A DNA stretch of 64,000 nucleotides, from the NCBI RefSeq assembly GCF_001542905.1, contig NZ_LOAJ01000003.1, forward strand, positions 1 through 64,000, written 5' to 3'. The DNA comes from Halorubrum aethiopicum (GTDB lineage Archaea; Halobacteriota; Halobacteria; Halobacteriales; Haloferacaceae). The translations under genes and the position numbers were made by a program. Positions 2,424 to 58,487 of the stretch are shown here, in pieces. Position 1 is the first letter of the stretch. Each line of letters starts with the position of its first letter. The notes below the pieces were generated by a model that worked only from the letters and a program-made list of their open reading frames with translations, did no database searches and was not told where the DNA came from.

Positions 2424-2433
2424 GCTGTTGCTC

Positions 2434-2553: not shown

Positions 2554-2798
2554 GACCGTCCAAGAGTTCACGTCATCGAGATTCTGGTGAACATAATGAA
2601 TCTGTATGGTTTGTTCGTGATGGTCGGTCTTGAGATGACATCTGTGATGCTGACCCTCAGGTCCCGATGCTGATGACGAAGACGGGTGTTGACTGGGATA
2701 TGGAGTCCCCCCACGTGTGAGGGTCGGTCACTCTTGAACTCGGGCCAGATTGGCCGCCGTCAACGTCGTTGACTGACGCGATCCTTAATGTGGCTTAA
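2554..2798. other. Intergenic stretch, no recognisable feature
   Basis: Between the downstream origin repeats and a degenerate coding remnant. No credible open frame, repeat or RNA was seen. Confidence 0.5.
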
Positions 2799-3020: not shown

Positions 3021-3099
3021 AATAGATAGTACATACTCAATTGGAAGCTTAGACTAAGTAAAGGTTATAACATTCCCGTCAGGTGATGTGAGTATCTAG

Positions 3100-6619: not shown

Positions 6620-7260
6620 TGGCGAGTCGCGGTTCGGAATTTGAGACCTCACCCGCCGAGGGGACAGAGGAGGATCGGCTGGTCCGCTACGGGACGAGTA
6701 TGTTCGGTGGCCGCCCGACGTTCACGCTCGTCCGACGAGAGACAGACGGTGGCGGAGAGTGGACGCTCCACGAACTACTCCCTCGCGAACAGGCTGAAGC
6801 CCGCCGTGATCGCTTGGAGCGGGATGGTCGTTCGCTGAGTATCACACCAGTTGAGGATCTCGTGTCGGACATCGCTGGCGACGACCTCCTTTCCAAGCTC
6901 GACGGCTGGACGTGGGATGAGTGGGCCGGCGCAAAGGTCGCTCGGCTTGACCCGACCCGCGTCCGTGCGCTCCAGGACGTCGTCCGGGAAGCGATCGAAG
7001 GCACGCCAGGAGATTCATCAGAAGTTCTCACTGGGGGGGCTGGGTTCGTGTTCCTACCCGAAACGGCAGGCGTCCGGCTTGCTGTTGCGTTCCGTGGCGT
7101 GAAGCCGATCCAGCGTATCGACCGGATGCGGTCGCTGGCTCGAGGCGTTGCACGGATGAGCGATGAGGAGTGTTACTACTGGTATGCAAAGTGTCGGTCT
7201 CCGTCGAGTCCGAACGGCGAAAAGGCCCTTCGAGTGTTGCTGACGGACCACATCAAATAG
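6619..7260 (+). CDS. Small accessory protein of the defence operon (DUF3780/DUF7680-like)
   Basis: 213 residues, soluble, no catalytic motif seen. The C-terminal segment EECYYWYAKCRSP followed by GEKALRVLL resembles the tail of the small DUF3780/DUF7680-type proteins that accompany DUF499 and DUF1156 genes in anti-phage loci; the comparison is from memory. The N-terminal part is Arg/Glu-rich and may form a beta sheet. It begins on the last base of the ATPase stop and is followed after four bases by the methylase gene, so it belongs to the same transcript. Its role is unknown; an adaptor between ATPase and methylase is a guess. Confidence 0.55.
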   Translation: MASRGSEFETSPAEGTEEDRLVRYGTSMFGGRPTFTLVRRETDGGGEWTLHELLPREQAEARRDRLERDGRSLSITPVEDLVSDIAGDDLLSKLDGWTWDEWAGAKVARLDPTRVRALQDVVREAIEGTPGDSSEVLTGGAGFVFLPETAGVRLAVAFRGVKPIQRIDRMRSLARGVARMSDEECYYWYAKCRSPSSPNGEKALRVLLTDHIK

Positions 7261-7264
7261 AACA

Positions 7265-23451: not shown

Positions 23452-23455
23452 GGTG

Positions 23456-23671
23456 TTAGGCTGGTTGGGGCGTGTACCCCTGGTTTTCGATGGTCTGTGC
23501 GAAGGCGTCGGGATCAGCGACGCTGTCGTCATATTCGATCTCGACGCGGCCGGTCGCGTAGTGAACCTCGACGTGCTGGACACCGTCGACGTTCGATAGG
23601 GCGCGTTCGACGGTGCTCGCACAGGTCGGGCAGTCGAAGTCGAGGACGCGGAACTGGGTTGTGTCGCTCAT
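23456..23671 (-). CDS. HMA-domain metallochaperone
   Basis: 71 residues, one ferredoxin-like HMA domain. The metal site is DFDCPTCAST, the CxxC loop. It ends four bases before the CPG-type ATPase gene, so the two are co-translated. In most P1B ATPases this domain is fused to the N-terminus; here it is a separate polypeptide that probably hands the ion to the pump. Confidence 0.88.
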   Translation of the reverse strand: MSDTTQFRVLDFDCPTCASTVERALSNVDGVQHVEVHYATGRVEIEYDDSVADPDAFAQTIENQGYTPQPA

Positions 23672-25635: not shown

Positions 25636-27027
25636 ATGGTAGCGACGATGATTGATGGCATCTCCGAAGCTCTACGTATCGGAGTGGGCTTCCTCTGGAC
25701 GGCAGCGTGGGCGATCATCATGGGCCTCACGATCACGAGCCTCGTCCAAGTCTACGTCTCCAAGGAGCGGATGGCGCAGGTCCTCGGCGATGGCGATCTG
25801 AGCGGGCTCACCAAGGCGACTGCGTTCGGCGCGGCCAGTAGTGGCTGTAGTTTCGGCGCCGTCGCCATCGGGAAGGGGTTGTTCAAGAAGGGGGCGCACG
25901 CGGTGAACTTCCTCGCGTTCATGTTCGCGTCGACGAACCTCATCGTCGAACTCGGGTTGATGATCCTGATTCTGCTCGGCTGGGAGTTCCTAGTCGCAGA
26001 GTTACTCGGCGGACTCATTCTCATCGCCGTGATGGCCGTCATCGTTCACCTCACGCTCCCGGAGAACCTCTTCGATGAGGTGCGAGAGACGCTCAACGAG
26101 CGCGATCACGAGGCGGGCGTCACCGAGGATCCAACCTGCGGGATGGAAGGCAAAGACGAGTACACGCTTACGACTGACGGCGGTGAGACGCTCAAGTTCT
26201 GCTCGGAGGGGTGTATGGAGACTTACCGCCAGGAGATGTCGAGTCGCGGTGGGTGGCGTGACGAGTTGCTGTCGTGGGGTGGCTGGTACAAAGTCGGGAA
26301 CCAGTACCGCAAGGAGTGGTCGATGATCTGGAAGGACGTCATCGCCGGCTTCCTCATTTCGGGGTTCGTCATCGTGTTCGTCCCCCAGTGGGTGTGGAAC
26401 ACCCTGTTCATCCAGGGCGACGGGCTACTTGTGACTGCCGAGAACGCGATTATGGGCGTCGCCATCGCCGTTATCAGCTTCGTCGGCAGCATGGGCAACG
26501 TCCCGTTCGCGGTCGCGCTTTGGGGCGGTGGCATCAGTTTCGCTGGCGTCATCGCGTTCGTCTATGCCGATCTCATCACGATTCCCGTGCTGAACGTCTA
26601 CCGGAAATACTACGGCTGGAAGGTGATGCTGTACATTCTCGGCGTCTTCTTCGCCACGATGGCGTTCACCGGCTTCCTCATGGAGCTGCTGTTCGACGCC
26701 CTCAACATCGTCCCTGATCTGGCGGGCGGCGAGACGGCGACCGAGCAAACGTACTTCGAGCTCAACTACACGTTCTACCTCAACCTCATTGCGTTCGCGC
26801 TTTCCGGCTTTCTCCTGTACGTGTATCGTCGCGGCCTTGGTGCGCCTGGCCAGTACCGTGATCCCGTCTGTGGGATGCGGACTGACGACAGCGAGCCATC
26901 GACGACCCATGACGCTGAGACGTACTACTTCTGCTCACAGACCTGTAAGGAGACCTTCGAAGAAAACCCCGACGAATACGCCACCGGCCACCCGATGGTG
27001 ATGGAAGGCCATGACCACGACCATTAA
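25636..27027 (+). CDS. Permease (DUF318/SO_0444-like) with two YHS domains
   Basis: 463 residues. The first half has four to five helices with the conserved ASSGCSFGAVAIGKGLF motif; the second half has four more. An internal YHS metal domain (DPTCGMEGKDEY, then FCSEGCMETY) lies between the halves. A second YHS domain (DPVCGMRTDDSE, then FCSQTCKETF) is at the C-terminus before a His tail (EGHDHDH). Permeases of this class export divalent metals or arsenicals; the paired YHS domains suggest copper, zinc or another soft metal. It is divergent from the SHOCT protein across 182 bases. No ligand can be fixed from sequence. Confidence 0.85.
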   Translation: MVATMIDGISEALRIGVGFLWTAAWAIIMGLTITSLVQVYVSKERMAQVLGDGDLSGLTKATAFGAASSGCSFGAVAIGKGLFKKGAHAVNFLAFMFASTNLIVELGLMILILLGWEFLVAELLGGLILIAVMAVIVHLTLPENLFDEVRETLNERDHEAGVTEDPTCGMEGKDEYTLTTDGGETLKFCSEGCMETYRQEMSSRGGWRDELLSWGGWYKVGNQYRKEWSMIWKDVIAGFLISGFVIVFVPQWVWNTLFIQGDGLLVTAENAIMGVAIAVISFVGSMGNVPFAVALWGGGISFAGVIAFVYADLITIPVLNVYRKYYGWKVMLYILGVFFATMAFTGFLMELLFDALNIVPDLAGGETATEQTYFELNYTFYLNLIAFALSGFLLYVYRRGLGAPGQYRDPVCGMRTDDSEPSTTHDAETYYFCSQTCKETFEENPDEYATGHPMVMEGHDHDH

Positions 27028-32103: not shown

Positions 32104-34386
32104 ATGGACGACCACAAAGATACAACTGAGAATTCCTCGGGAGGAGAGGACCAGCCGGACACCACCAGCCACCAGCACGAACACGGTGAGCACGATGAAG
32201 CGGTCGCGGAATCGGACGAGGAAGGGGTAGAACAGGGACTACTAGAGGAGGAAGCTCACCCTGCTGCGGCAGGTGAGATGGCGTCCCACGAGCAGCACGA
32301 ACACGCCGGACACGAGGGCGACGGGCACGGCCACGGTTCCCACGAAGGACACGGCGAGGGCCATAGCGGGATGCACGAAGGCCACGAACAGATGTTCCGC
32401 CGGCGCTTCTTCGTCTCGACGCTCCTGTCGGTCCCCGTCCTCCTGTACAGCGAAATGCTGCAGGAGTGGCTCGGCTTCTCTGTCCCAGCATTTCCGGGGA
32501 GCGAATGGATCAACCCCGTCTTCGCGGTTATTGTCTTCGCGTACGGTGGGGTCCCGTTCCTCCAGATGGCGGTACCGGAGCTGAAAGACCGGTCACCGGG
32601 GATGATGACGCTCATCTCGATGGCGATCACCGTCGCGTTCGTCTACAGCCTCGCGAGCGTGATTTTCCCCACACAGTCGGCGTTCTTCTGGGAGCTCGTC
32701 ACGCTGATCGACATCATGTTGCTCGGCCACTGGATCGAGATGCGGTCGGTCCGGCGGGCCTCCAGCGCGCTCGACGAGCTGGCGAAGCTGATGCCCGACA
32801 CCGCAGAGCGCATCACCGACGGCGGGGAAACCGAGGAAGTCCCCGTCAGTGAGCTCTCCGAAGGCGACCTCGTGCTCGTCCGGCCGGGCGCGAGTGTCCC
32901 TGCTGACGGCACCGTCGAGGAGGGAGACTCCGACGTCAACGAGTCGATGATCACCGGCGAGTCCAAGCCCGTCTCGAAAGAGCCTGGCGACGAGGTCATC
33001 GGCGGCACCATCAACGGCGACGGGAGTCTCCGTGTTCGCGTCGGTGCGACGGGCGAGGAGACGACGCTCGCGGGCATCATGCGTCTCGTCGAGGAAGCCC
33101 AGCAGAGCAAGTCCAAGACGCAGGTACTGGCCGACCGGGCGGCCGGCTGGCTGTTCTATGTCGCGCTCGGGGCGGCAGTCGTGACCGCGATTGCGTGGAC
33201 GGTAGCGGTGTCGTTCGATGCGACCGTCATCGAGCGCGTCGTCACGGTACTCGTCATCGCCTGTCCGCACGCCCTCGGGCTCGCAATCCCCTTGGTCGTC
33301 GCGATCAACACGTCGCTCGCCGCTCGCAACGGGATGCTCGTTCGCGACCGCATCGCGATGGAGGACGCACGGAAGCTGGACGCCATCATCTTCGACAAGA
33401 CAGGCACGCTTACCGAGGGCGAACACGGCGTCGTGGATATGGCGACCGTCGACGGCGTCGACGAGGACGAGGCGCTCGGACTGGCGGCGGCTGTCGAGAG
33501 TGACTCCGAACACATGATCGCCCGAGCGATCCGCGAGGCCGCCGACGAGCGAGACCTAACTACTCCCGACGCGACCGCCTTCGAGGCGATCAAAGGTCGA
33601 GGGGTTCGCGCAAACGTCGACGGAAACGAGGTGTACGTCGGTGGGCCGAACCTGTTGACCCAGCTCGATAGCGAGATACCCGACCATCTCCAGCGCTTCG
33701 CTGACGAGGCCGGACAGAACGCCCAGACAGTGGTGTATCTCGTTCGTGACGGAGAGCTAATCGCCGCCTTCGCGATGGCCGACGTGATCCGCGAGGAGAG
33801 TTTCCGCGTCGTCGACGCGCTCCACGATCTGGGTATCGAGGTAGCGATGCTGACTGGCGACTCCCAGGATGTCGCCAACGCCGTCGCGGACGAACTGGGT
33901 ATCGACACGGTGTTCGCGGAGGTTCTCCCCGAAGACAAAGACGAGAAAGTGCAGGAACTCCAAGACCAGGGGAAGCTCGTGGGGATGGTCGGCGACGGTG
34001 TCAACGACGCGCCGGCGCTGACGCGAGCCGACGTCGGCATCGCTATTGGAAGCGGCACCGACGTTGCGGTCCAGTCGGCCGACGTCATCCTCGTCCAGAA
34101 CAACCCGATGGATGTGGTGCGACTCGTGAAGCTCAGTAAGGCGAGCTACCGGAAGATGCAGGAGAACATCGTCTGGGCGGCCGGCTACAACGTCTTCGCG
34201 CTTCCGCTTGCAGCAGGCGTGTTGGCACCGATTGGGATTCTGCTGTCCCCCGCTGTGGGTGCGCTCCTGATGTCGTTGAGTACAGTAATCGTCGCGATCA
34301 ACGCCCAATTGCTCCGCCGCGTGGACCTGTCCATCCCCGAGCTTCCAGGCGGGACACCAGCGACTGACGCACAACCTGCAGACTGA
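32104..34386 (+). CDS. copB: CopB-type P1B ATPase (CPH motif)
   Basis: 760 residues. A His-rich N-terminal tail (several HEHG and [14 protein letters not shown] segments) replaces HMA domains. Transmembrane metal motif is CPH (387-389, in [13 protein letters not shown]), the hallmark of the P1B-3 class for Cu(II), with Cu(I) or Ag also reported. Phosphorylated Asp is D431 in [14 protein letters not shown] and [10 protein letters not shown] hinge motifs are present. The nucleotide-domain HP is HM (SEHMIARA). Located in the membrane, it exports copper. Preceded by the copper chaperone gene. Confidence 0.9.
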
Positions 34387-36205: not shown

Positions 36206-36264
36206 TCGAAACAAAGTAATAAGTGAATCCTCGTGAAGCGCCCCGCAAGAGTCGTGAGACACGT

Positions 36265-37041
36265 ATGATAAACCCAACCGTCCTACAACAGGGAAGTGAC
36301 TGGCGGGCACAGGCTGAGGTCTTTGACGAGATCTTTCTCGTCTTCCTCACACTCGGGACGCTCGTCGGTACGATTGTCGTCACGTACACACTGTGGAATG
36401 TGTATAAGTACCGTGACGATGGGAGTGAACCAAAAGCGGACTTCGACGCGCCCACAGTCGGCGAGCTTCCGACAGGACAGGGCGGTCCCAAAGCCAAGAA
36501 GCTCTTCCTGTCGTTCGGGTTGAGCGCGATCGTCGTCATCAGCCTCGTGGTGTACGCGTATGGGCTTCTCCTCTACGTCGAAGAGGGGCCCGACACGAGC
36601 GACGAGGGTGACATTGAGATTCTCGTTGAGGGGTACCAGTTCGGCTGGGAGTACGAGTACCCGAATGGTCACACCACGACCGGCGAGATGATCGTGCCGG
36701 CCGATCAGCGTGTTGACCTCAATGTGACATCACGCGATGTGTGGCACAACTTCGGATCGTCGGAGTTGCGGATAAAATCTGATGCCATCCCCGGAGAGTA
36801 CAGCAATGTCTGGTTTTCTGTAAGTTCTGAACAAGTGGAAAAACAGGGAGGCGAAGCAACGTACAGGGTTGAGTGCTTTGAGCTATGTGGTGCCGGTCAC
36901 TCCGCGATGACTGGTCAAATCACGGTGCTCCCGCAAGAGGAGTGGGAAGAGTGGTACGCTGGAACTCAAAGTGAAAACGCATCTAGCGGCACGAACGCAT
37001 CCAGCATCGACGCCGCGCCCACCGGAGGTGTCCCTGTATGA
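36265..37041 (+). CDS. coxB: Cytochrome c oxidase subunit II
   Basis: 258 residues from ATG at 36265; a GTG at 36223 is also in frame but less likely. Two transmembrane helices (about 20-45 and 80-105) precede a cupredoxin domain. The CuA site is complete: [12 protein letters not shown] gives the two Cys, His and Met, and VWHNFG holds the other His. Accepts electrons from a blue copper protein or cytochrome and passes them to subunit I. Overlaps the coxAC gene by four bases (ATGA-type), so they are co-translated. Terminal oxidase of aerobic respiration. Confidence 0.92.
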
Positions 37042-39536
37042 GTGATCTTCCACCCACGAGCTCGGTGAAACGCTGGCTCATCACGACGAATCACAAGGAT
37101 ATCGGAATTTTATACACGATCACCGCGCTGTTCTTCCTGCTGTTCGGCGGCGTGCTCGCGCTGTTGATCCGCATCCAGCTGTGGGAGCCGACGAGTCAAA
37201 TCTTGTCTGGGCTCGCGTATAACGAAGCGGTCACAGCCCACGGGCTGATAATGGTGTTCTGGTTCCTTTCCCCGTTTGCCTTCGGGTTCGCGAACTACTT
37301 TGTCCCGCTCCAGATAGGCGCCGATGACCTTGCGTTCCCGCGACTGAACGCACTCTCGTATTGGATGTATCTGTTCTCTGGCGTGCTGTTATCAATCAGC
37401 TTCTTTCAGGGCGGCACACTGAGCGCTGGATGGACTATATACGCACCGCTCAACATACCCGCGTACACGCCGAGCATCGGTTCGACGGGAGCGATACTCG
37501 CGCTTGCAATGTTCACTATTGGGGTCACCGCCTCTTCAGTGAATTTCCTTGTGTCAATTCATCACTCCAGAGCCGAAGGGATGGGTATCATGGATATGCC
37601 GATGTTCACTTGGACCATCCTTGCGACGGTGTGGATGATGCTGTTCGCGTTCGCTGCGCTGCTTGCCGCGGGACTTATTTTGGCGTCCGACCGTGTACTA
37701 GGGAGCGTCTACTTCTCGGCCACTGAGGGTGGGTCCCTCTTGTGGGGGCATCTGTTCTGGTTCTTCGGACATCCAGAAGTGTACATCGTCTTTTTCCCTG
37801 CACTTGGTGCGATGTTGGAGTTGTTCCAGACGTTTTCCGGACGCCGGCTTGTCGGCCGAAAATGGGTTATCATTGCTATCTGTCTTGTTTCGGTCCAGTC
37901 GTTCCTCGTGTGGATGCACCACATGTTCCTCACCACGATCAATTTGGAAATCAAGACCCTGATGATGGCAACAACGATCGGAATCTCGTTACCCTTTGAC
38001 CTGATCGTGTTCTCGCTGATCTATACACTGATTAAGGGGCGTATTCAGGTTACGACGCCGTTCCTCTTTGCGTTCGGGGCGCTACTGTTGTTCATTCTCG
38101 GTGGCATTACCGGGGTGTTCCTCGGTGCTATCGTCCTCGACTACGAGTTCCGTGGCACCTACTGGGTGGTCGCACACTTCCACTACGTTATGTTTGGCGG
38201 TGCCACGGCACTAATTGGTGCCGCGTACTACTGGTTCCCAAAAATAACTGGGAAGATGTATAATGAACTTCTTGGGAAGATCCATTTCGTGTTGTTTTTC
38301 ATCGGATTTAATGCCGTCTACTTCTCAATGTTCCTCGGATGGGAAACCCCTCGCCGCGTCTTCGAGTACAACCCTGAGCTCCAGATTTACCATCAGTTCG
38401 GCACAATCGGTGCATTCGTCCTCGGGTTCTCCTTTTTCATCATGTTTTATAATTTTGCGAAGTCGTACGTTTCCGGTCCTGATGCTGGGGCGAACCCATG
38501 GGATTACTCACGGACGGCAGAGTGGGCGGTCTCCTCGCCGCCGCCGCTAGAGAATTGGCCGAACCGGCCGTCGTATGCTTCTGGAAAGCTGGAGTTCGTA
38601 AAAGACTATGTTCCGGACGGTGGTCCTGCGGTAAAGACCGACACGGATGGGAACAGGGCTACTGACGGTGGTGACACACATCCAAAGCATATCAAAAAGT
38701 ACCCATACTGGGATAAGCATCCGAGCCACGCAAGTATCTGGCCGCTTGCTCTTTCGCTAGCTGTTGGTGTGTTATTCCTAGGCCTCACCGGGTTCCGCGA
38801 TAATGTTGTCTTCGAGCTGGGTGAATCGCTCGCATCGACGGGCGTAACAATCTCAAACCCGATATACCCGATACTCATAGTTATCGGATTAGTCGGAGTT
38901 ATATGGACCGGCGTGAAGTGGGGGCTCGAAGACTTTTACGCTCCACCGACCGAGTTTGCAGAGCGATGGCCGTTTGAAAGCGTTGAAAAAGTAAAACTGG
39001 GAGTGTGGTTTTTCATCGCGTCGGACGTGATCGTCTTTGGCGCGTTCCTCTCAGCAGCTATCTTCGTCCGGTACAACGCTGGATGGATGACTTGGGAGCC
39101 GCTGACGGATGCACTTCCAGGACTGATCAACACGTTCGTCCTGCTCACCTCATCGTTCACCGTGATTTTGGCGCTGGTGGCCGCTCGCCGGGAAAGCCGG
39201 AAAGGATTGCTCGCATCCCTCGGTACAACCATTGTACTTGGATTTGCGTTTTTGGGCATCAAACTATGGGAGTGGAACAAAGAGATCTTTGAACGTGGTG
39301 TGACGATTTCGGCCAACGCCCACGGTGACCCGATTCAGGCGTCGATCTACTACGTCACAACGGGGCTCCATGGAGTCCACGTCGTCATTGGCCTCCTGAT
39401 CGCTATCTTCCTGTTCGTCAGGGCGTATCAGGGTCACTACCTCGACGACGAGCGGCCGATCGAATACTTCGGCCTCTACTGGCACTTCGTGGACATCGTC
39501 TGGGTGTTCATTTTTCCGCTGTTCTACCTCTTCTGA
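37038..39536 (+). CDS. coxAC: Cytochrome c oxidase subunit I+III fusion
   Basis: 832 residues. The first 540 or so are subunit [10 protein letters not shown], the two His in VWMHHMF (CuB), a K-channel Lys in [12 protein letters not shown], and HFHYVMFGG for heme a3 and heme a. After a linker with an acidic stretch, the rest (from about residue 640, [20 protein letters not shown]) is subunit III, with seven helices. The I/III fusion is common in haloarchaea. Proton-pumping heme-copper oxidase in the membrane. The copper genes around it (ATPases, chaperone, CtaA) serve its supply and cofactor synthesis. Confidence 0.92.
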
Positions 39537-44322: not shown

Positions 44323-44904
44323 TTACTCAGAAAATGAATTGTACGAAACGCTGTCTTGATCGACGATGGTCTGGCTTTCGGGAACATTTCCGTCCGGCGG
44401 CATACCCCCCTCCGCGGGACCGCCGGGTTCGCCAACGACAATCCGCCCAACCATTCCCAAGGATTTGTGCGGGATACAAAAATAATCGTACGTGCCCGTG
44501 GTCTCGAACGTATGCTCAAACGTTGCCCCCTGTTCACTCAGGATTTCGCTATTGAACGCTTCTGCTCCCTCGGGAATCCGTGTCACCTCTGCTGAACTCG
44601 TTCCTTGTTTGTAGACAGTTGCCGAGTGACTCCCACTCTGGTTTTTGAATGTCACGGTTTCTCCGGGTTCGATGAACAACCCGATGGGATCGAAATAATA
44701 CTCGCTCCCTTCGGTGACCATCATTACCGTGTTTGAGCCACCCGATCCAGCATTCGTTTCTCCTCCTGAATCTCCATTTGTATCCTCTGTCGTCGTCGCC
44801 TCACTCTCACCGTTTCCGTTCCCTGAACCACTGCATCCGGCAAGACTAGTTACACTACCTGTAGCGAGAATCCCAGCGGTCTTGAGAATCTGTCTCCGCT
44901 CCAT
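44323..44904 (-). CDS. Cupredoxin (halocyanin-like), Tat lipoprotein
   Basis: 193 residues. The N-terminus has MERRQILKTAG then a lipobox SLAGCSG, a membrane-anchored exported blue-copper protein. A Gly/Ser/Thr/Glu linker follows. The cupredoxin domain binds type 1 copper through His in SGSHSATV and the C-terminal cluster CIPHKSLGM (Cys, His, Met). Probably carries electrons to CoxB or other oxidases nearby. It is tailed by a short region rich in Gly and Pro. Confidence 0.85.
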   Translation of the reverse strand: MERRQILKTAGILATGSVTSLAGCSGSGNGNGESEATTTEDTNGDSGGETNAGSGGSNTVMMVTEGSEYYFDPIGLFIEPGETVTFKNQSGSHSATVYKQGTSSAEVTRIPEGAEAFNSEILSEQGATFEHTFETTGTYDYFCIPHKSLGMVGRIVVGEPGGPAEGGMPPDGNVPESQTIVDQDSVSYNSFSE

Positions 44905-45269: not shown

Positions 45270-45465
45270 GCCTTCATTTTTAACTGCGACTGTACTGAGA
45301 ACCTGATTGACTCTACATTGATCTCAAAGAGAAATTCTATACGATAGATAGCGACAGCCACATAAACATAACCTTCGTAATGCTACACAATTGATTGGCT
45401 CCTTATTATGATACTCGTTTCATAGAAATATGTACAGTAATACCCAATTGAGATGGAGTGCTGTC
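45270..45465. other. Gap before the SPW-motif ATPase
   Basis: AT-rich spacer between the CydA remnant and the promoter of the ATPase. No other feature seen. Confidence 0.4.
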
Positions 45466-45474
45466 AAAATAATA
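45466..45474 (+). promoter_or_regulatory. Leaderless promoter of the SPW-motif ATPase
   Basis: AAAATAATA is centred about 28 bases before the ATG at 45498, in an otherwise untranslated AT-rich region. It supports 45498 as the start over the upstream in-frame ATG at 45453. Confidence 0.5.
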
Positions 45475-45497
45475 GAACGTATCATTCCCATCACAGT

Positions 45498-47999
45498 ATG
45501 ACTGAAAAGTGTTCCCTGTGCGGCCGACCGATTCAACCTTCCACATTCGAGGCTCCCGGTGACCGCGGGTTCTGTTCGAGTGGCTGCTACGATGTGTACA
45601 CGACACTCGGAGCTGTCGGTTCCCTCGACGACACCCAATCCCCACCTGGGGGCGAAAGTACACAGACAGGAGACGCAGATCCGCCCGAACGAGACGGTTC
45701 TCGGACGTTTCTACGGATCGATGGGATGTACTCTGCGACATGTGAGGCATATCTCGAATCGGTCGCTGAGAGCCAGGCGGGAGTGACCGCCGCTGAAGCG
45801 AGCTACGTTACAGAGACGATCCGCATCGACCACGACCCAGAAACCGTATCGAAGGATACACTGCGTGACGCGTTGAGTACGCTCGGGTACACAGCATACC
45901 TCCGTGACGACGCCTCGACAGAGGCGGATACAGCCGGCGGGACGACGCGCCGGTCACGGGAGATGGGTGGTATTCGAAAGCGGCGAGACGACCAACTCTT
46001 GGGCATGCGGTACTCCGTTGGCTTCCTTTTCGGCGCGTTCCTGTTGGTCCCGTACGTCGCGATTCTGTATCCCGCGCAGCTCGCATCAATATTCGACTGG
46101 CAAGCGCTCGCGATATTCGAGGGTGCGTTCCGGCTGGACAGTCAGGGCGCGTTCGTTTTTCTCCGACTCTACTTCGTGATGACCGGGATCATCCTCGTCT
46201 TCACCGGGCTTCCGGTGTTGCGGGGTGCGTACATCAGTCTGAAAATGCGTCGGCCAAACACCGACCTGTTAGTCGCGATCACTGCGGTGAGTGCGTATCT
46301 GTACAGTACGGCCGCCGTCATCCTCGGACAGAATGATATCTTCTACGACCTCGCGATCGTCGTGACGGCTGCGGTCACCGCGATGGTGTTCTACGAGTCG
46401 TCGATCAAACAGCGCGCACTCAACCGGCTCACCGAGCTCACGATATCGCAGGTCGAGCAGGCGCGGACGTACGACGCAGACGGAACCACTCAGGACGTTC
46501 GCGTCGAGGACCTCGAGGCGGGCGATGTCGTCCTCGTTCGACAGGGGGAACGCGTGCCGGTCGACGGCGAACTCGTCGAAGACAGCTGTACCGTCGACGA
46601 AGCGATCGTGACCGGTGAGTCGCTTCCGGTGGTGAAACGCGCCGGCGACGACGTGATCGGGGGGTCGATCGTCACGGACGGCGCTGCGTTGGTCCGTGTC
46701 GGCCCAGACGTGACGAGCAGTATCGACCGGATAACGACCGCTGTCTGGGACTTACAGAGCGCGACGCACGGGGTCCAGCGGCACGCCGACCAACTCGCGT
46801 CGTACGCCGTGTTCCTCGTCGTCGGAGCCGCCGTCACGGTCGGCAGCGTCGGGGCGCTCGCATTCGGGATGGCCCCGCCCGACGCTGCCCTCCTCGCGCT
46901 GTTGGTCCTCCTCGCCGGCTCGCCGTGGGCGCTCGGACTCGCGACGCCGTTGTCGGTCGCGAAGAGTCTCTCCAGTGCGCTCCGGCGCGGGATCATCATC
47001 TTCGACGAAACGGTCTTCGAACGGCTCCGCGACGTCGATATCGTCGTTTTCGATAAGACGGGGACGCTCACGACCGGAGAGATGGAGGTGATAGAAGCGG
47101 ACGCGCCCGCGGAGTTGCTCGACGCCGTCGCCGCGCTCGAACAACGAGCGTCACACCCCGCCGCGAACGCGATTGTGACGGCGTTCGCCGGCAGAGATGG
47201 AGGCGACGACACGGAGGATCAGTCGGGCTCGGCAGACGACGCGGTCGGAACGGAAGGCGACAATCGGATACGGGAGTTCACGAACCACCGATCCGGTATC
47301 GAAGGCGTGATCGGCAACACGTCGTATCTCGTCGGGAACCTCGATCTGTTCGCGGAACAGGGGTGGACCGTCGACGACGATATCCGGTCGCGGGTCGCCG
47401 ACGCTCAGGGATTCGGTCAGCTGCCGGTCGTGATCGGTCGTGACGGGGCAGCAGAGGGGCTGATAGTCGTCGGGGACGAGCCGCGGGACGGCTGGGACGA
47501 CACCGTCTCTCGGCTCGGAGAACGAGGCACGGAGGTCGTCGTCCTGACCGGCGACGACGAGGAAGCGACGGACTTCTTCAAGCGACACGACGCCGTGACG
47601 CACGTCTTTGCGACGGTTCCGCCGGAGGGGAAGACGGCGACGATCCGGCGACTCAAATCTGACGGGCAGGTCGCGATGGTCGGTGACGGCACCAACGACG
47701 CACCGGCGCTCGCCGCCGCCGATCTTGGCATCTCGCTGGGCGGGGGGACGGCGTTGGCCGCCGACGCCGCCGACATTGCGATTGTCGATAACGACATCCG
47801 CTCCGTCGAAACCGCGTTCGACCTCGCGGGAGCGGCTCGCCGTCGTGTGAAACAGAACAACCTCCTCGCGTTCTCCTACAACGGTATTGCCCTCGCGGCG
47901 TTGGCCGTCGGGTTCTTCAATCCGCTGACGGCAGCGGCCGCGGTCATCGCTGGCGGTGGGTTGATCGCGGTAAACACTCGACGAAAACTCCTCGGGTAG
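45498..47999 (+). CDS. P1B-like heavy-metal ATPase with SPW motif
   Basis: 833 residues. The N-terminal 30 residues contain CSLCGRPIQPSTFEAP and FCSSGCYDVY, a YHS/TRASH-like Cys site. Next is a ferredoxin-like HMA in which the metal loop reads GMYSATCEAYLES, with one Cys instead of CxxC. In the membrane domain the metal motif is SPW (475-477, AGSPWALGLATP), not CPC, CPH or SPC. Phosphorylation Asp is D519 (DKTGTLTTGE); the HP dipeptide (RASHPAANA) is normal. The two lost sulfur ligands in the membrane suggest a different ion or an altered transport role. No operon partner. Confidence 0.85.
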   Translation: MTEKCSLCGRPIQPSTFEAPGDRGFCSSGCYDVYTTLGAVGSLDDTQSPPGGESTQTGDADPPERDGSRTFLRIDGMYSATCEAYLESVAESQAGVTAAEASYVTETIRIDHDPETVSKDTLRDALSTLGYTAYLRDDASTEADTAGGTTRRSREMGGIRKRRDDQLLGMRYSVGFLFGAFLLVPYVAILYPAQLASIFDWQALAIFEGAFRLDSQGAFVFLRLYFVMTGIILVFTGLPVLRGAYISLKMRRPNTDLLVAITAVSAYLYSTAAVILGQNDIFYDLAIVVTAAVTAMVFYESSIKQRALNRLTELTISQVEQARTYDADGTTQDVRVEDLEAGDVVLVRQGERVPVDGELVEDSCTVDEAIVTGESLPVVKRAGDDVIGGSIVTDGAALVRVGPDVTSSIDRITTAVWDLQSATHGVQRHADQLASYAVFLVVGAAVTVGSVGALAFGMAPPDAALLALLVLLAGSPWALGLATPLSVAKSLSSALRRGIIIFDETVFERLRDVDIVVFDKTGTLTTGEMEVIEADAPAELLDAVAALEQRASHPAANAIVTAFAGRDGGDDTEDQSGSADDAVGTEGDNRIREFTNHRSGIEGVIGNTSYLVGNLDLFAEQGWTVDDDIRSRVADAQGFGQLPVVIGRDGAAEGLIVVGDEPRDGWDDTVSRLGERGTEVVVLTGDDEEATDFFKRHDAVTHVFATVPPEGKTATIRRLKSDGQVAMVGDGTNDAPALAAADLGISLGGGTALAADAADIAIVDNDIRSVETAFDLAGAARRRVKQNNLLAFSYNGIALAALAVGFFNPLTAAAAVIAGGGLIAVNTRRKLLG

Positions 48000-48164: not shown

Positions 48165-48350
48165 ATGGAGTTCGACTTCGTGCGCTCGGTGGTTCCGCTC
48201 GCCGTGATCGTCGCCGTCGCAACGGTCGCGCTAACCGCCGTGATGGCACCTTCGACCGTCTTCATGATGGTTCTCCCCTCGATGATCGCGTTCTCGGTGG
48301 TCGCGTACTTCTTCGGGATGAAACACGGCGAATTCCGCGCTAGTCCGTAG
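48165..48350 (+). CDS. DUF7333-like small membrane protein
   Basis: 61 residues with two helices (VVPLAVIVAVATVALTAVM and MVLPSMIAFSVVAYFFG), ending GMKHGEFRASP. It fits the short haloarchaeal DUF7333 family as I remember it. Located between two metal-related genes; role unknown. Confidence 0.6.
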   Translation: MEFDFVRSVVPLAVIVAVATVALTAVMAPSTVFMMVLPSMIAFSVVAYFFGMKHGEFRASP

Positions 48351-48496: not shown

Positions 48497-49699
48497 TTAT
48501 TCGGTAACTCCCGCACTGAGCTCAGACGCGTCCTGCCGGACGGGCGTCGGGGAGTCGATCGAATACACGAGCGTTCCGGTGAACAGTGCGATGCTCCCTA
48601 ACAGGAATATCGAACTGAGCGGCGACGCCGAATCGACGAAGATCCAGTATATCGGCGCCGCGATCGTCGGGCCGGCCGCGATGACAGCGACTTGGGAGAC
48701 GAGGGGGCCACAACACCCACACGTACACGCACCGACGACCGTCGCCGTCCCGGCCGTACTCTGTGTCGCTCCCGCCTGCTGATCGAGACGCCACGAGTGA
48801 GCGACGGCGGCCGCGTTCAACCCCACGAGGACGCCGAGGAGTCCGAGCACGATGACCACACCGGGAGAGATCGCAATGAAAAACGGAACGTCGGGGAGCA
48901 GGACCTCGAGAGTGGGCCATCGCACGATCTGATACAGTACGTTCAGGACCGCCACGGTCGTCTCTTGCGGAGCGCCCTCCTCACTAAAGAAGGATAGGTA
49001 TCCAGTCGTCGCCATAAAGAAGAGGCTCACCATGGCTCCGACGCTGAATCCGAACCGACGCGCCACCGGATCCCGAAGGATCGTCGACAGTGCCGTGCCA
49101 ACGTCGTTCCAGAGAATGTAGCCGACGAGTAGTGGTGTCGCGAGGACGATCCCGTACCCGATCGGGTTGGTGTAGCCGCTGAATCCGGGCAGCAGATACG
49201 GGTACAGTATCCAGCCGCCAAGCAGCATGCCGAGAGCCATATACCGAGGACGTGTCGTCCATCGCACGAGTCCGGTAATGAAACTCGCGACCACGACCAA
49301 CAGGCCGGTTCCGATCGCGAGCGGCTGATACCACGACCGCGGGAACGGCATCGAGCCCGCCTGATACGTCGGATCCGGAGCTAGACCCTCGAAAAGGATT
49401 GCGCCGGTGATAGCAATACCGATACCGATCGCAATTCCGTACAGAGCGGTTCTCGGCGAAATCCGCTTGCTGCGCTTGAGGAAGACGAGAGCACCAACTC
49501 CGAGGGCACCGATACCAGCGATCGCCAACCCGTGCGACTGTGAGAGTGCCGACGACTCAGCACCACCGTGGGCCGAAACTGTCGGGACCAGCGAGAGGAG
49601 ACTGATCCCGACAGCAACTAAGACGAGTAGCCGGATTGACCTTCGCCGAGGTTTCTGTCTATCGGCATCAGCGTTCTCGCTTCGGCCTTTCTGAGTCAT
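48497..49699 (-). CDS. Polytopic membrane protein with a CTCGCCGP cluster
   Basis: 400 residues, about nine transmembrane segments after a signal-like N-terminus (VLVAVGISLLSLVPTVSAHGG). A loop near residue 335-345 holds CTCGCCGP, four Cys in seven positions, a likely metal or redox site. No family recognised. It ends the run of minus-strand genes starting with the CPC-type ATPase, and sits after the multicopper oxidase gene. A membrane component of copper handling is a reasonable but unproven reading. Confidence 0.7.
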   Translation of the reverse strand: MTQKGRSENADADRQKPRRRSIRLLVLVAVGISLLSLVPTVSAHGGAESSALSQSHGLAIAGIGALGVGALVFLKRSKRISPRTALYGIAIGIGIAITGAILFEGLAPDPTYQAGSMPFPRSWYQPLAIGTGLLVVVASFITGLVRWTTRPRYMALGMLLGGWILYPYLLPGFSGYTNPIGYGIVLATPLLVGYILWNDVGTALSTILRDPVARRFGFSVGAMVSLFFMATTGYLSFFSEEGAPQETTVAVLNVLYQIVRWPTLEVLLPDVPFFIAISPGVVIVLGLLGVLVGLNAAAVAHSWRLDQQAGATQSTAGTATVVGACTCGCCGPLVSQVAVIAAGPTIAAPIYWIFVDSASPLSSIFLLGSIALFTGTLVYSIDSPTPVRQDASELSAGVTE

Positions 49700-49846: not shown

Positions 49847-51004
49847 TCAGTTCGGTTCGTAGCCGGCGTACTCCATGAGCTGACTGAAGATGTCCGAGTC
49901 CATGACGGAGCGGTACACCACGCCGGTAAGCATGCCGCCGGGGTAGAACGACCCGTTCATCACGTGGTTGACCTTGTGGCAGTGCATGAGGTAGATCCCG
50001 GGGTCCGCGTCGGCCGTGAACTCGATCGTGTGCCGTTCCGCGGGGGCGATGTTCGTGACGTCGATGTCGTGTCTGGCGGCTTCCGGAACGACCCCGCCGT
50101 CCTTTTCGACGCGCTGGAAGCGATGGTTGTGGATGTGCATCGGGTGCGACATGTACCCGCCGTTGACGAGGTGAATGCGAACCTGATCGCCCTGATCGAC
50201 GATGATCGGTGACCCCTGTTCGGGATGGAGCGTCCGGGGCGCGCTCTTCCCGTTGACGGTGAAGACATCCGGCGTCCGCGAGGTCGTATCGTACGTGAAG
50301 TTCCCCTCGCCGGCCCATGTCTTCGGGATCCGCGAGTCCCAGTCTTTGATCGTCATGAAGTACTCCCGGTCCGCCGGCTCGTAGCCTTCGGGATCGACTC
50401 GGAAGATTCCGTACATCCCCATGTCGATATGCCGGTGTGTTTGGAAGTGACAGTGGTACAGGTGCGTCCCCGGAACGTTCGCCGGAATTTCGTAGGTGTG
50501 CTTCTCGCCCGCTGGGACCTGTATTCCGGTCGATGTCGGGACGCCGTCGTTCTTCCACGTCTTGGTGACGCCGTGGAAGTGGATCGTGTGCGGTCGGCGT
50601 CCGTTCGTGTTGTCGAGCGTCACTTCCATGTCGTTCCCCTCGGTCGTCCTGAGGATCGGACCCGGGACGCTCGGGTCGTGGTCGTCGGCCTGCCAGGCCC
50701 AGACCCGCGGGAACTCGACCGGGCCGCCCATCGAATCGAGCGGGTGAACGGCGTGTCGCGCCGGCTGCGTCCCCATCGTCACTGACCCGCCCTGCTCGTC
50801 GACGTTGACGACCGTCGGAGGGCTGGTGTAGGGTAGATCCGACGAAGATGTCTGTGCCTCGTTCGGGGAGTTCGTGGCCGCCGTCGGCGCGTTAATCGTC
50901 TTCGATGAACAACCTGCCAACGCCGAAAGGCCTGTCGCGCCGGTCGCGGTGAGGAATTCTCGTCGAGACAGTCCGGTTCCAGGAGCACCGAAGGATCGAG
51001 TCAT
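49847..51004 (-). CDS. Two-domain multicopper oxidase, Tat-exported
   Basis: 385 residues from the ATG at 51004. Signal: SRREFLTATGATGLSALAGC, a Tat motif followed by a lipobox. Two cupredoxin domains with copper ligands: HTIHFHG and HLYHCHFQTHRHIDMGMYG in the first domain, HPMHIHNHRF and HCHKVNHVMNGS in the second. Both domains keep Cys/His pairs that could hold type 1 copper, besides the trinuclear cluster His. This resembles small two-domain laccases or nitrite-reductase-like enzymes. Probably oxidises Cu(I), Mn(II) or phenols outside the cell. Situated in the copper/metal group. Confidence 0.85.
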   Translation of the reverse strand: MTRSFGAPGTGLSRREFLTATGATGLSALAGCSSKTINAPTAATNSPNEAQTSSSDLPYTSPPTVVNVDEQGGSVTMGTQPARHAVHPLDSMGGPVEFPRVWAWQADDHDPSVPGPILRTTEGNDMEVTLDNTNGRRPHTIHFHGVTKTWKNDGVPTSTGIQVPAGEKHTYEIPANVPGTHLYHCHFQTHRHIDMGMYGIFRVDPEGYEPADREYFMTIKDWDSRIPKTWAGEGNFTYDTTSRTPDVFTVNGKSAPRTLHPEQGSPIIVDQGDQVRIHLVNGGYMSHPMHIHNHRFQRVEKDGGVVPEAARHDIDVTNIAPAERHTIEFTADADPGIYLMHCHKVNHVMNGSFYPGGMLTGVVYRSVMDSDIFSQLMEYAGYEPN

Positions 51005-51080
51005 AGTACAGTTGGAACACTCTGTTGTACGGCTAAAGAAGGACCGCGAAATCCCTGTACCTGAGAAAGCGAGCAAACAT

Positions 51081-53210: not shown

Positions 53211-55874
53211 CTACCCATCCGAAGCGGTGGTTTCGTCGTCTGCTGTCGGCGTGATTCGAGAGAGACGCATCGCATTGCCAGTGACCCCGAGCGTCATCCC
53301 GGCGTCACCGATGAGGACGGCCGCCCAAATCGGAACCAAGCCGAACGGGACGCCCAGTGCGAGCAGGCCCTTGGCACCGAGACTCGTCCAGATGTTCTGC
53401 CGAATCACGCTGTTCGCGTCGTGAGAGAGGTCGTAGAGGTACGGCAGCTTCGATAGGTCGTCGCTCATGAGCGCGATATCCGCTGTTTCGAGCGCGGTAT
53501 CCGTTCCGGCCGCGCCCATTGCGACGCCCACAGTCGCCGTTGCGAGTGCCGGCGCGTCGTTGACGCCGTCGCCGATCATCGCGACTCCGTCGTACTTCTC
53601 GTCGAGTTCCGTGATCGCCTCGACCTTCTCATCAGGCAGGAGTTCCGCCCGGAACTCGTCGATGCCGACCTCGGTCGCAATCGCACGGGCGGTCCGTTCG
53701 TTGTCCCCCGTGAGCATGACGATGTGTTCGACACCGAGGTCGTGGAGTCGCTGGATCGCCTGCTTCGCTCCGGGCCGGATCTCATCAGCCACGGCGATGA
53801 CGCCCTCGAGTTCGTCTTCGGTACCAACGAGCACGACGGTCTTTCCCTGTGACTGGAGCTCGGGAACCGTCTCCTCAAGCAGGTCGAGACAGTCGTTGCG
53901 CTCGCATATCCGACGGCTCCTCGTCGTCACGACACCGCCGTCAGTCGTCGCATGGACGTGCTCGAGGTCGAATCCGAGTTCCTCGAAGAGACCAGGCTTG
54001 CCTGCGTAATGTTTCTCGCCGTCGAGATCAGCCTCGACCCCCTTGCCGGTGATACTCTCGAAATCGTCGACCGAAGGGGCATCGACGTCGCTCTCCTCGG
54101 CAAATTCGACGATTGCGTCGCCGATAGGATGTTCCGACCGCGACTCCAGCCCGCTGGCACACCGGAGGACGTCTCCCTCGCTGTTGCCGTTGAGCGGGAC
54201 GATGTCCGTGACCGTGAGTTCGCCCTTCGTGATCGTCCCTGTCTTGTCCATCGCGATCGCTTCGACCGCGCCCATCGCTTCGAGGTGGTTGCCGCCCTTG
54301 ATGAGAACGCCGTTCTTCGCGGCGCTCGTGATCCCCGAGACGACCGAGACGGGCGTCGAAATGACGAACGCGCACGGACACGCCAGCACGAGCAGCGTGA
54401 GTCCGTAGACGATGAACGTCGGCCACGACACGCTGAACAGGAGCGGCGGAATAACCGCTACCACGATCGCGAAGCCGACGACGACCGGCGTGTAGTACGA
54501 GGAGAACCGCTCGACGAACTGCTCGCGTTCCGTCTTGTTCGATTGCGCGTCCTCGACCATCTGGACGATGCGGGAGAGCGTGTTATCGCCCGCTTCGGAG
54601 GTGACCTCGACTTCGAGATACCCCTGCTCGTTGATCGTCCCCGCGTACACCTCATCCCCCGGCGTCTTGTCGACGGGCACGCTCTCACCGGTAATGGGGG
54701 CCTGATTGACGGCACTCTCTCCGTCGATCACGTTCCCATCCATCGGAATTTTTTCTCCCGGACGCACGACGACGATGTCGCCGACCGCCACGTTATCAAC
54801 GGGAAGCGTCACCTCCTCGCCGTCCCGTTTCACCGTCGCTTCGTCCGGAGACAGATCCATTAATTCTCTGAGGGAGTTGCGCGCGCGATCCATCGAATAC
54901 TGTTCGAGGAGTTCGGCGATACTGAACAGGAACGCGAGCGTGGCGGCCTCGAAGTAGAGCGATTCGCCGAAGACGAGGCTCGCGACGATGGCACCGCTGA
55001 TGGCAATGCTCATCAGCAGGTCGATGTCGAGGTTCCGATTGAGCGCGGAGTAGTAGCCGTTACGGAAGATGACCTGCCCGGCGGTTCCGACGGCCACGAG
55101 GAAGAAGAGATCCGCGATGAGCAGCTCGCGACCGACGACCTCGGCTACGAGAGCGTTCTGGCCGGTAAGGAAGAACTCGAAGAAGAGCCCAAGCGCGACG
55201 AACCCACCGCTGACCCACGTTTTGAGCGCGCGAGAGCTTGTCCAAATGCTCTCACGATCTCCGGCCGCGTTTTGACGTTCCGATCCGTCGCCTGCTGTGT
55301 CTGTGACCTCATACCCAGCGCTTTCGATCGCGTCGATGACATCCGCTTCCCCGCCTCTCGACGAATCGTACGTGACAACGACGGTTCTGGTCGTCGGCTG
55401 TGTCTCGTACGTTGTCACTCTGTCGACCCTGTCGAGGGCGTTTTCGATCTTGCCCGCGCACGATGCGCAATCCATCTCCGGGACGGTGAATTTCGAGGTC
55501 AGTTCGCCAGCGTTCTCCACCGCGTATCCCGCTTTCTCAACGCGTTCAGTTATCGCGGTGGCGCTCGTTTGCTCGCGATCGTAGGAGACTGTCAGCGTCC
55601 CCGTCGTCACCTGCGGATCGACGCTGTCGATGCCGTCCAGCTTTCCGACGCTGCTCTCGACCTTTCCGGCACAGGATGGACAGTCCATCTCCGGGACCGA
55701 TAACTGCGCAACGTCCTCACTATCTACCGATGAAACAACATCTTCGTCATCTTGTCCGGTGTGATGACCGTGTTCGTGATCTCCATGATCGTGGTCGTGC
55801 GTATGACCATCCTCGTGGGTCTGACCCCGTGGTTCACCAGTTTCGTCGTGGGATCTTTCGTCAGGTTGGGTCAT
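53211..55874 (-). CDS. P1B-type ATPase with two HMA domains and CPC motif
   Basis: 887 residues. An N-terminal His/Asp-rich tail (HGDHEHGHHTG) is followed by HMA domain 1 (VPEMDCPSCAGKVESS) and domain 2 (VPEMDCASCAGKIENAL), both with CxxC. Membrane motif is CPC (499-501, LACPCAFVISTPVSV), typical of P1B-2 Zn/Cd/Pb or of Cu pumps; FVISTP and LIKGGNHLE resemble the Zn/Cd group. D543 in DKTGTITKGE is phosphorylated; hinge TGDN and [10 protein letters not shown] are present. The nucleotide domain HP (RSEHPIGDA) is normal. First gene of a run with the CDF transporter; likely zinc/cadmium/lead export. Confidence 0.9.
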   Translation of the reverse strand: MTQPDERSHDETGEPRGQTHEDGHTHDHDHGDHEHGHHTGQDDEDVVSSVDSEDVAQLSVPEMDCPSCAGKVESSVGKLDGIDSVDPQVTTGTLTVSYDREQTSATAITERVEKAGYAVENAGELTSKFTVPEMDCASCAGKIENALDRVDRVTTYETQPTTRTVVVTYDSSRGGEADVIDAIESAGYEVTDTAGDGSERQNAAGDRESIWTSSRALKTWVSGGFVALGLFFEFFLTGQNALVAEVVGRELLIADLFFLVAVGTAGQVIFRNGYYSALNRNLDIDLLMSIAISGAIVASLVFGESLYFEAATLAFLFSIAELLEQYSMDRARNSLRELMDLSPDEATVKRDGEEVTLPVDNVAVGDIVVVRPGEKIPMDGNVIDGESAVNQAPITGESVPVDKTPGDEVYAGTINEQGYLEVEVTSEAGDNTLSRIVQMVEDAQSNKTEREQFVERFSSYYTPVVVGFAIVVAVIPPLLFSVSWPTFIVYGLTLLVLACPCAFVISTPVSVVSGITSAAKNGVLIKGGNHLEAMGAVEAIAMDKTGTITKGELTVTDIVPLNGNSEGDVLRCASGLESRSEHPIGDAIVEFAEESDVDAPSVDDFESITGKGVEADLDGEKHYAGKPGLFEELGFDLEHVHATTDGGVVTTRSRRICERNDCLDLLEETVPELQSQGKTVVLVGTEDELEGVIAVADEIRPGAKQAIQRLHDLGVEHIVMLTGDNERTARAIATEVGIDEFRAELLPDEKVEAITELDEKYDGVAMIGDGVNDAPALATATVGVAMGAAGTDTALETADIALMSDDLSKLPYLYDLSHDANSVIRQNIWTSLGAKGLLALGVPFGLVPIWAAVLIGDAGMTLGVTGNAMRLSRITPTADDETTASDG

Positions 55875-56125: not shown

Positions 56126-57187
56126 TCACAATGTCATCTGTATCTCCGGCATATCAACGAAGGCTGTCTCGTATCCCTCATGGCGAGCCGTTTGTGGGGG
56201 CGAATCGACTGTGATCGTCAGCTCATCTCCCGTCTGTACGTCCGAAACTGTTGTCCCGTAGTGATAGCGGAGCTCTGGATTGATGGTTGACTGTAGAATT
56301 CCGTCGAATACTGACGCACCATCGCGCTGTAATATTACAGATAATGACATCATCGGCAGCATCGTCCGATTGTACGGCGTGCGCGGAGACACAGCGAGGT
56401 ACTTCTGTTCCCCGTCACCACCGAAACGCGACGCGTCTTCGAGGACCGTAACCACGAACCTCGCGTCTCCGGTCGTTTCCGAGCCACGCACGTCACCGGG
56501 GAGTGCGTCCGGCGTCGGCACCTGCGAGTCCGGTATCATCTCCATGTCCATTAGATCGACAGCACCCCTCGTGCCTTCCTTGTCGTCGGAGATGTCTGTG
56601 TACGAGATCTCATCGAGCGTCGATTCGCTGAACTCGAATTCGAACTCGAACGAGGCGTTCCCCTGGTTCTCGGCCAGCGATCCGGTCCGCCGCGTCGACG
56701 GCCCGCCGATACTGACCTCGACAGTGTATGTGCCGTCGCCCTGAAGTTGGGCGTTATCGCCGAAGTGAAAGCCCATCGGCTGAGAGAGCATCGGCCACGG
56801 CGCGAATTGATCAATCGATTCCCCATTCTGTGTGATCGTGAGCTGCGGATTGATATCGGGCGGAATGATCCCTGTCTGTGCGTCCCAGACGACCGGCATT
56901 ATATGAACGGAATCCGCCGACTGGATGTCAACCTTCGTGGTCCCGTTTGGCTTCATCAGCCAGAAGCGATGCGGATACGAGTACGTGAGCGCACACTTGT
57001 ACCCATCCTGCTGTTTCATTCCAGCCATTTTCATTCCCTCGTAGTGGGTGGGATGGTAGACTGTATCCGGCCGATTCCCGGCCATTGGTGGGGCAGAAGC
57101 AGAAGGTGTCTCGAACACGCTGGCACACCCAGCGAGGCCGACGATCGAAGTGCTCCCGGCGACCCGGAGCACATCACGACGACGCAT
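56126..57187 (-). CDS. Tp34-like (DUF7350) exported metal-binding protein
   Basis: 353 residues, Tat/lipobox start (RRRDVLRVAGSTSIVGLAGC). Met/His-rich site HPTHYEGMKMAGM near the N-terminus and SYPHRFWLM follow; later HIMPVVWDAQTG and MGFHFGD. These patterns fit the Tp34/P19-like periplasmic iron- or copper-binding family (haloarchaeal DUF7350, from memory). Overlaps the DyP-like gene by 14 bases, so they are a unit. Together they resemble a Efe/Ftr-type iron or copper uptake or oxidation pair. Confidence 0.7.
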   Translation of the reverse strand: MRRRDVLRVAGSTSIVGLAGCASVFETPSASAPPMAGNRPDTVYHPTHYEGMKMAGMKQQDGYKCALTYSYPHRFWLMKPNGTTKVDIQSADSVHIMPVVWDAQTGIIPPDINPQLTITQNGESIDQFAPWPMLSQPMGFHFGDNAQLQGDGTYTVEVSIGGPSTRRTGSLAENQGNASFEFEFEFSESTLDEISYTDISDDKEGTRGAVDLMDMEMIPDSQVPTPDALPGDVRGSETTGDARFVVTVLEDASRFGGDGEQKYLAVSPRTPYNRTMLPMMSLSVILQRDGASVFDGILQSTINPELRYHYGTTVSDVQTGDELTITVDSPPQTARHEGYETAFVDMPEIQMTL

Positions 57188-58487
57188 ACGTCACCTCCTC
57201 CCCGTTGCTGCCGGTTGGGTATACAGGCGGAAGCGCGCGCAAACCCCGCGGGGGCACGAGGTAATTGCCGCGACGCTCCGTCCGGATATACTGGAGGATA
57301 CCGTTGTTGTTTCGCTGCCCGACGGCCGACTTCTCGGAAATATCGGTTCCGTTCATCGCCTCTTTCGTGTCGACGAAGTCGCTGATCCGCCGTTGGAGCG
57401 AGAGGAAATGTACGCCCGCTCGTCCTCCGTCAGTCGAATCAAAGTCACGACGAAGCAGCAGCGGCGAGCCGTCATCGTCGCGAACACGGGCGTTCTTCTG
57501 CGCGTGACCGACGACACCCATCTCGCGGGCGGTTTTATTGGTCGGCTCACACTCATCGACTCCGTTGCTGTCGCCGAGGTTGTCTCCGGCACCCTTGACG
57601 ACATCGTTCTCGGCGTGATATGGGCAGAACATCTTCGCCTCGCGCTGCCAGCGGTCGTCCTGATTGTACCACTGGTTGAGGTTGAGCCGGAGCTTGGAGA
57701 TATGCTGAGTCGTGCCACCGGCGAACGGCCCCGACTGGATCGTCACACGATCTTCACTGGCCTGGTTCTTTGTGAACCCTGATTTGAACCCCATAAACAG
57801 AGGTGCGTCCTCCGGAACTTTGTCGGCTGGAACACCCTCAGCGTCACCTACATTCTCCGCCGGTAACCCGTTCCCGATAAAGCCCGTCCGCCGGTCGGCG
57901 AGTGAGAAGACATCGGTCAATGTAGCCTTAGGCTGATCGACATCGTTGAGGGTCGGTTTGCTCCCTTTGAGAGCTTCTTCGGCACCGATCACCGCCTGCG
58001 CCGTGTTACTCGCGAGATGGACGACCGCATCCGGTGTATCTAATTCGGGCTCCTCGAACGGAGCAAGTGCTTCCGGATCGGAGAGGTCAACGCCATCAGG
58101 AAGTGATTCGTCGAACCGGTCGAAGTATGCCGGAGAATAACTCACCGTGAACAATAATCCGTCTCCGCTTCGCTCGTAGGCGTGTTCAATGCCACGGAGA
58201 GCTGTTTCAACCCGATCGCGGTGGTCTTCGTTCGGTTGTCCGTCTCCTCGGTAATTCAGATAGAGAAGCACCCGATGGCTCGGGGCGATGACGTTTCCGT
58301 GGTCGTCTCGTGAGAGGACCTCATTCCAAGCGTGTTGACGCTGTGGATACGATGAGAGATCATCCGGGGCCGTCGGGATATCGACTTCTTCACGGCCTAA
58401 ACAGGCACTAAATCCTGCTACTCCGCCGATAGCGACGGCCGACTTGAGAAATTCTCTTCGGGGGATTCCCCTCTCGTCAGTCATCAC
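57174..58487 (-). CDS. DyP-type peroxidase-like protein, Tat-exported
   Basis: 437 residues. Tat motif PRREFLKSAVAIGGVAGFSAC. The body follows the DyP fold: SKLRLNLNQWYNQ, VVGHAQKNAR (heme-ligand His region), LLRRDFDSTDGGRAGVHFLS, LQRRISDFVDTKEAMNG, and the C-terminal YLVPPRGLRALPP. The usual catalytic GxxDG signature reads GFIGNG, so the Asp that supports peroxide cleavage is missing. Activity may therefore differ or be lost. It is the first gene of the pair with the Tp34-like protein, as in iron-uptake EfeB/EfeO-type units. Confidence 0.7.
   Translation of the reverse strand: MMTDERGIPRREFLKSAVAIGGVAGFSACLGREEVDIPTAPDDLSSYPQRQHAWNEVLSRDDHGNVIAPSHRVLLYLNYRGDGQPNEDHRDRVETALRGIEHAYERSGDGLLFTVSYSPAYFDRFDESLPDGVDLSDPEALAPFEEPELDTPDAVVHLASNTAQAVIGAEEALKGSKPTLNDVDQPKATLTDVFSLADRRTGFIGNGLPAENVGDAEGVPADKVPEDAPLFMGFKSGFTKNQASEDRVTIQSGPFAGGTTQHISKLRLNLNQWYNQDDRWQREAKMFCPYHAENDVVKGAGDNLGDSNGVDECEPTNKTAREMGVVGHAQKNARVRDDDGSPLLLRRDFDSTDGGRAGVHFLSLQRRISDFVDTKEAMNGTDISEKSAVGQRNNNGILQYIRTERRGNYLVPPRGLRALPPVYPTGSNGEEVTYASS

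Follow-up and report, generated by a model that had tools for sequence, protein, structure and literature searches.

P1B ATPases of the P1B-4 class carry an SPC motif in the fourth membrane helix (M4), and the diversity of the P1B group was reportedly surveyed by Smith et al. in 2014. Among the P1B-1 Cu(I) pumps, CcoI is described as having two copper sites at its N-terminus and two in the membrane (PMC8475189). The AfCopA pump has an entry site formed by M158, C380 and C382 and a high-affinity site formed by residues of CPC, of the YN pair in M5 and of MxxSS in M6, and Cu(I) binding suffers when residues of these three motifs are mutated (PMC9433437). We found no account in the open-licence literature of a P-type ATPase with an SPW, TPW or CPW motif.

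We analysed such an ATPase in a window of 64,000 nucleotides from Halorubrum aethiopicum (contig NZ_LOAJ01000003.1, positions 1–64,000). From its first ATG the open reading frame spans 45453-47999 on the forward strand and encodes 848 aa; the start used in Table 1 is that of the public annotation in a 99% identical orthologue (2502 bp), and residue numbers count from 45453. A preliminary description had reported SPW in place of the Cys motif, intact catalytic motifs and a single Cys in the HMA loop, all of which the translation confirms: the frame reads SPWALGLATP, TGES, DKTGTLT and GDGTNDAP, with GMYSATC as the HMA loop, and every catalytic motif of the P1B superfamily (DKTGT, TGES, HP and GDGxND) is present. 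The Pfam models E1-E2_ATPase, Hydrolase and HMA each match above cut-off. The genome holds nine E1-E2 ATPase genes, and the SPW ATPase is the weakest of the nine domain-model matches, yet far above the cut-off (132.3 vs 28.1 bits). The window itself has three further P-type ATPase genes, with CPG as the M4 motif (IGCPGALV; 21532-23622, reverse strand), of CPH type (32104-34386) and of CPC type (53211-55874).

Table 1. Features of the SPW ATPase and its surroundings, in window coordinates. Fractions of 58 refer to xPW loci with context, near-identical loci being counted separately.
Feature	Position	Strand	Remarks
xPW-type P1B ATPase gene	45498..47999	+	833 aa from 45498 start
N-terminal four-Cys site C20xxC23...C41xxxC45, FCS zinc-finger-like	45510..45587	+	
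HMA domain	45711..45893	+	PF00403, E 1.3e-7
HMA loop GMYSATC, second Cys alone retained	45723-45743	+	
Arg-rich linker TRRSREMGGIRKRR ahead of first membrane helix	45930..45980	+	mostly missing in CPC relatives
T270, place of Cu(I) entry Met (AfCopA M158)	46260..46262	+	by alignment
C379 in A domain, eight residues ahead of TGES	46587..46589	+	clade-specific
TGES dephosphorylation loop	46611..46622	+	
SPW at M4 kink, place of CPC	46920..46928	+	
DKTGT phosphorylation motif	47052..47066	+	
Tyr-Asn of M5, retained	47877..47882	+	Y 97/102, N 101/102
MxxSS place in M6, here VIAGG	47943..47957	+	by alignment
COX2 and COX1-COX3 fusion (heme-copper oxidase)	36223-39536	+	COX15 near
Plastocyanin/halocyanin-type blue copper protein	44323..44904	-	6/58
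DUF7333 small membrane protein	48165..48350	+	PF24020, E 3.7e-22; 11/58
400-aa membrane protein with CTCGCCGP motif, convergent	48497..49699	-	17/58
Multicopper oxidase	49847..51076	-	11/58

The SPW protein shares its N-terminal Cys site, HMA domain and P1B core with CopA2/CcoI (FixI), slow Cu(I) exporters of high affinity that serve oxidase assembly, and with a haloarchaeal CPC paralogue, L006, to which it aligns with 49% identity; the Cys module ahead of the HMA domain that is a feature of CopA2/CcoI is recognisable by position and Cys pattern. The same architecture of N-terminal Cys and HMA is found in the CPC paralogues L006 and L008, on contig C1 of this genome; the window belongs to contig C3. 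Compared with CopA2/CcoI and L006, the SPW protein has SPW for CPC and SxxC for the CxxC of the HMA domain, has lost MxxSS and the entry Met, and has gained an A-domain Cys and the Arg-rich linker.

When the protein was searched against 391 Halobacteria genomes, 306 had a match of 1e-100 or better, CPC paralogues included. Loci were gathered from these and from a set of named genomes; collapsing identical cores and applying a 480-bit floor reduced their 185 ATPase frames to 135 distinct haloarchaeal relatives, in which the M4 motif ends in either Trp (102) or Cys (33) and nothing else. The residue before PW in the 102 Trp members is Ser in 81, Cys in 12, Thr in 7, and Asn and Ala in one each, and P491 and W492 are invariant (102/102), a conservation that is more than chance. 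Profile scoring placed 118 matches, in at least 113 of the 391 genomes, above the best-scoring CPC row; this genome count is by score, the M4 motif itself having been read in the fetched loci, and the threshold misses a few lower-scoring xPW members (such as G282, G116 and G267). Three further high scorers were checked and all had SPW. None of 15 loci sampled elsewhere in the same phylum, outside Halobacteria (L209-L223), has Trp at this place.

A FastTree phylogeny was built from 133 of the 135 rows, omitting L026_0 (truncated) and L032_0, with the columns of the HMA loop, the M4 motif, residue 270, the M6 motif and the linker excluded. The 100 Trp rows form a single clade with support 100 (FastTree local support, not bootstrap), and the tree needs one change for the Trp, six for the first-place Cys and three for the first HMA Cys. 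The preliminary description had raised the doubt that CPC homologues in the same clade might mark the gene as a degraded copy with lost function; this is not so, none of the 100 rows of this fully supported clade being CPC. In one locus, L107, a CPC-type and an SPW-type gene (1710-4157 and 5004-7484) stand in tandem on the same strand.

To judge by the alignment, the loss of metal ligands extends well past the SPW motif itself. The place of the entry Met is Thr in 91 of the 102 Trp members and Met in none, against Met in all 33 CPC relatives; the Met of MxxSS is likewise 0/102 vs 33/33, and its paired Ser positions hold a mixture of Gly, Thr, Ser, Cys and Ala in the Trp clade. Two Met residues of the first membrane helix, present in 33/33 of the CPC group, are mostly gone. 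When the Cys positions of the SPW protein are set against the helices of its AlphaFold model, no membrane helix contains a Cys. Gains that only the Trp clade shows include the invariant residues Y187 and F196.

The enzyme is under purifying selection, and its function appears to be maintained: ten pairs taken from the near clade give dN/dS values of 0.114-0.211, and the Trp clade as a whole has 72 invariant positions, catalytic motifs included. The AlphaFold model is a confident P1B fold (pLDDT 84.7, pTM 0.81) with a helix broken at SPW, and its best matches among solved structures are tied between the copper pump CopA (4bbj, Z 26.4 with an rmsd of 4.2 across 632 residues) and a zinc pump (4umw, Z 26.3 with an rmsd of 4.5 across 591 residues). 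The protein scores above the cut-off of the general NCBIfam model for heavy-metal P-type ATPases, TIGR01525 (391.3 vs 346.25 bits), and below those of the P1B-1 (Cu+) model TIGR01511 (336.4 vs 397 bits) and of the Cd subfamily model TIGR01512. By these features it belongs to P1B; it has the YN of M5, and its membership of P1B-1 fails on CPC, on MxxSS and on the curated model. With P1B-4 it has in common the Ser at the first M4 place, the second Cys being Trp here, and with the P1B-2 pump ZntA (4umw, 4umv) it shares the fold but not the CPC motif.

The cytosolic cysteines, in contrast to those of the membrane, are largely retained. At the N-terminal site, C41 and C45 are found in 102/102 Trp members and C20 and C23 in 100/102 (two gaps). 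This site had been described as an extra one; it is real, and it is not extra, the CPC paralogues carrying the same (33/33). Its FCCxGC has become FCSxGC in 94/102 Trp members, the CPC paralogues having CC..C, and the two N-termini give different weak, below-cut-off Pfam matches, to the FCS-type finger zf-FLZ for the SPW protein and to PF12156 (ATPase-cat_bd metal-binding domain) for the CPC paralogue. Both HMA cysteines are present in all 33 of the CPC group; in the Trp clade the second is kept in 99/102 and the first in only 10/102 (8/12 CPW members and 2/90 others). C379 is present in 102/102 Trp members and in 0/33 CPC relatives. We also considered whether, within xPW, the first HMA Cys was lost together with the membrane Cys, for which the raw table is 8/4 vs 2/88 (Fisher 9e-8). 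This was rejected: linkage is not shown beyond shared ancestry, because only 0–2 of five independent tree pairs go the same way.

The ATPase gene lies among genes for COX2, a COX1-COX3 fusion, COX15, DsbA-/DsbB-like proteins, a blue copper protein, a multicopper oxidase, DUF7333 and the CTCGCCGP protein. Plasmid pCBA1229 has the same set of neighbours, and Haloarcula marismortui pNG600 has much of it with a CPW ATPase; CPW members whose HMA domain keeps both Cys of CxxC share a neighbourhood with SPW members. In Natronorubrum daqingense, SCO, TlpA and CcdA stand beside the SPW ATPase, and the remaining xPW members have mostly unrelated neighbours. In six of the sampled CPC loci there is a DsbD_2 (TauE/SafE-like) gene nearby. 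The gene for the CTCGCCGP protein is convergent with the ATPase gene, and this is therefore a shared neighbourhood, not one operon. The CTCGCCGP neighbour is missing in 41 of the 58 xPW loci with context (near-identical loci counted separately); the copper surroundings therefore characterise one subgroup, and a metal-resistance region, and not the whole clade. The CTCGCCGP protein matches no Pfam or NCBIfam family and its AlphaFold model is poor (mean pLDDT 46.8). The motif is invariant in 13/13 aligned family members, with family matches in 35 plasmid records; four homologues, taken from plasmid records absent from the listed xPW hits, have cydAB, a cbb3-type oxidase or unrelated genes around them. 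Elsewhere in the window, the metal region encodes an ArsP_1 permease that carries a YHS domain at its C-terminus (25636-27027, forward strand), and there is a DUF7405 protein with a weak C-terminal DyP-peroxidase match (57174-58487, reverse strand).

The explanation that we favour, at roughly even odds, is that the SPW protein is a working P-type ATPase, re-purposed from a haloarchaeal Cu(I) pump of the CcoI/CopA2 type, in which the thiolate route for Cu(I) is gone. Because the membrane residues that grip copper have been replaced, it probably moves or senses something besides bare copper ions. The earlier suggestion of a different substrate or another role holds up in part: an altered substrate or role is supported. 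Against our explanation, the neighbourhood shared by CPW/CxxC and SPW members argues that the role was unchanged by the Cys loss, or that copper is still involved, and with copper-protein and terminal-oxidase genes beside the plasmid group the protein may yet have a copper role.

Tryptophan can bind Cu(I), as it does in CusF, and the protein might still export Cu(I) or Ag(I) for copper proteins outside the cell through Trp (cation-pi), Ser/Thr, Tyr and Asn, the metal perhaps arriving in complexed form. Adjoining copper-protein and oxidase genes, their sharing between CPW and SPW members, and the retained Tyr-Asn and N-terminal Cys all favour such export; we nonetheless think it unlikely, since SPW members no longer have the thiolate and thioether ligands that make up the known route and since the CPC and N/M/S membrane copper sites are both stated to be necessary for copper transport by P1B ATPases (PMC8475189). 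A membrane site emptied of ligands above surviving cytosolic Cys sites and a new invariant A-domain Cys could also belong to an ATPase that transports nothing itself, such as one that regulates a CPC paralogue in response to copper, or one that drives a separate membrane subunit in the way that KdpB drives KdpA. CPC paralogues do occur in the same genome, and the tandem pair of L107 fits such a role. Most members, however, have no membrane partner adjoining and the neighbours vary across the clade, which makes this reading a doubtful one too; moreover, the Pro and Trp of the M4 kink and the Tyr-Asn stay under constraint, which suggests that the membrane site is in use. Decay of a copper-pump copy would account for the lost ligands and for a shortened copy in one genome (G035, locus L026), but it is highly improbable, and we reject it, in view of 102 clade members with intact catalytic motifs, low dN/dS and many invariant positions.

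In the re-purposed pump that we favour, the Cu(I) relay of the haloarchaeal CcoI/CopA2-like ancestor (the entry Met, the CPC Cys, and the Met and paired Ser of MxxSS) has been replaced, with the catalytic core and Tyr-Asn retained and the ATPase cycle presumably still running. Its membrane site may have been rebuilt on Pro-Trp, Ser/Thr, Tyr and Asn, and the cargo would be neither Cu(I) nor Zn(II) as a bare, thiolate-held ion. Cytosolic metal or redox control of the pump might be exerted through the cysteines at its N-terminus, the one left in the HMA domain and the clade-specific one in the A domain, and the work of the plasmid-borne group is probably tied to the maturation or protection of copper proteins and terminal oxidases. 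Somewhat more tentatively, the xPW clade may be an undescribed P1B subclass, with a sulfur-free site on the invariant Pro-Trp in its SPW/TPW forms, a non-thiophilic or complexed cargo and control through cytosolic cysteines.

Substrate choice in P1B ATPases is deduced from a small number of residues in the membrane, and here nearly all of them have changed in an enzyme whose core is still selected. The coexistence of CPW (with CxxC) and SPW/TPW (with SxxC) forms offers a natural test of what the ligands do, and the family is a warning that similarity does not suffice for calling such a gene a copper or zinc pump.
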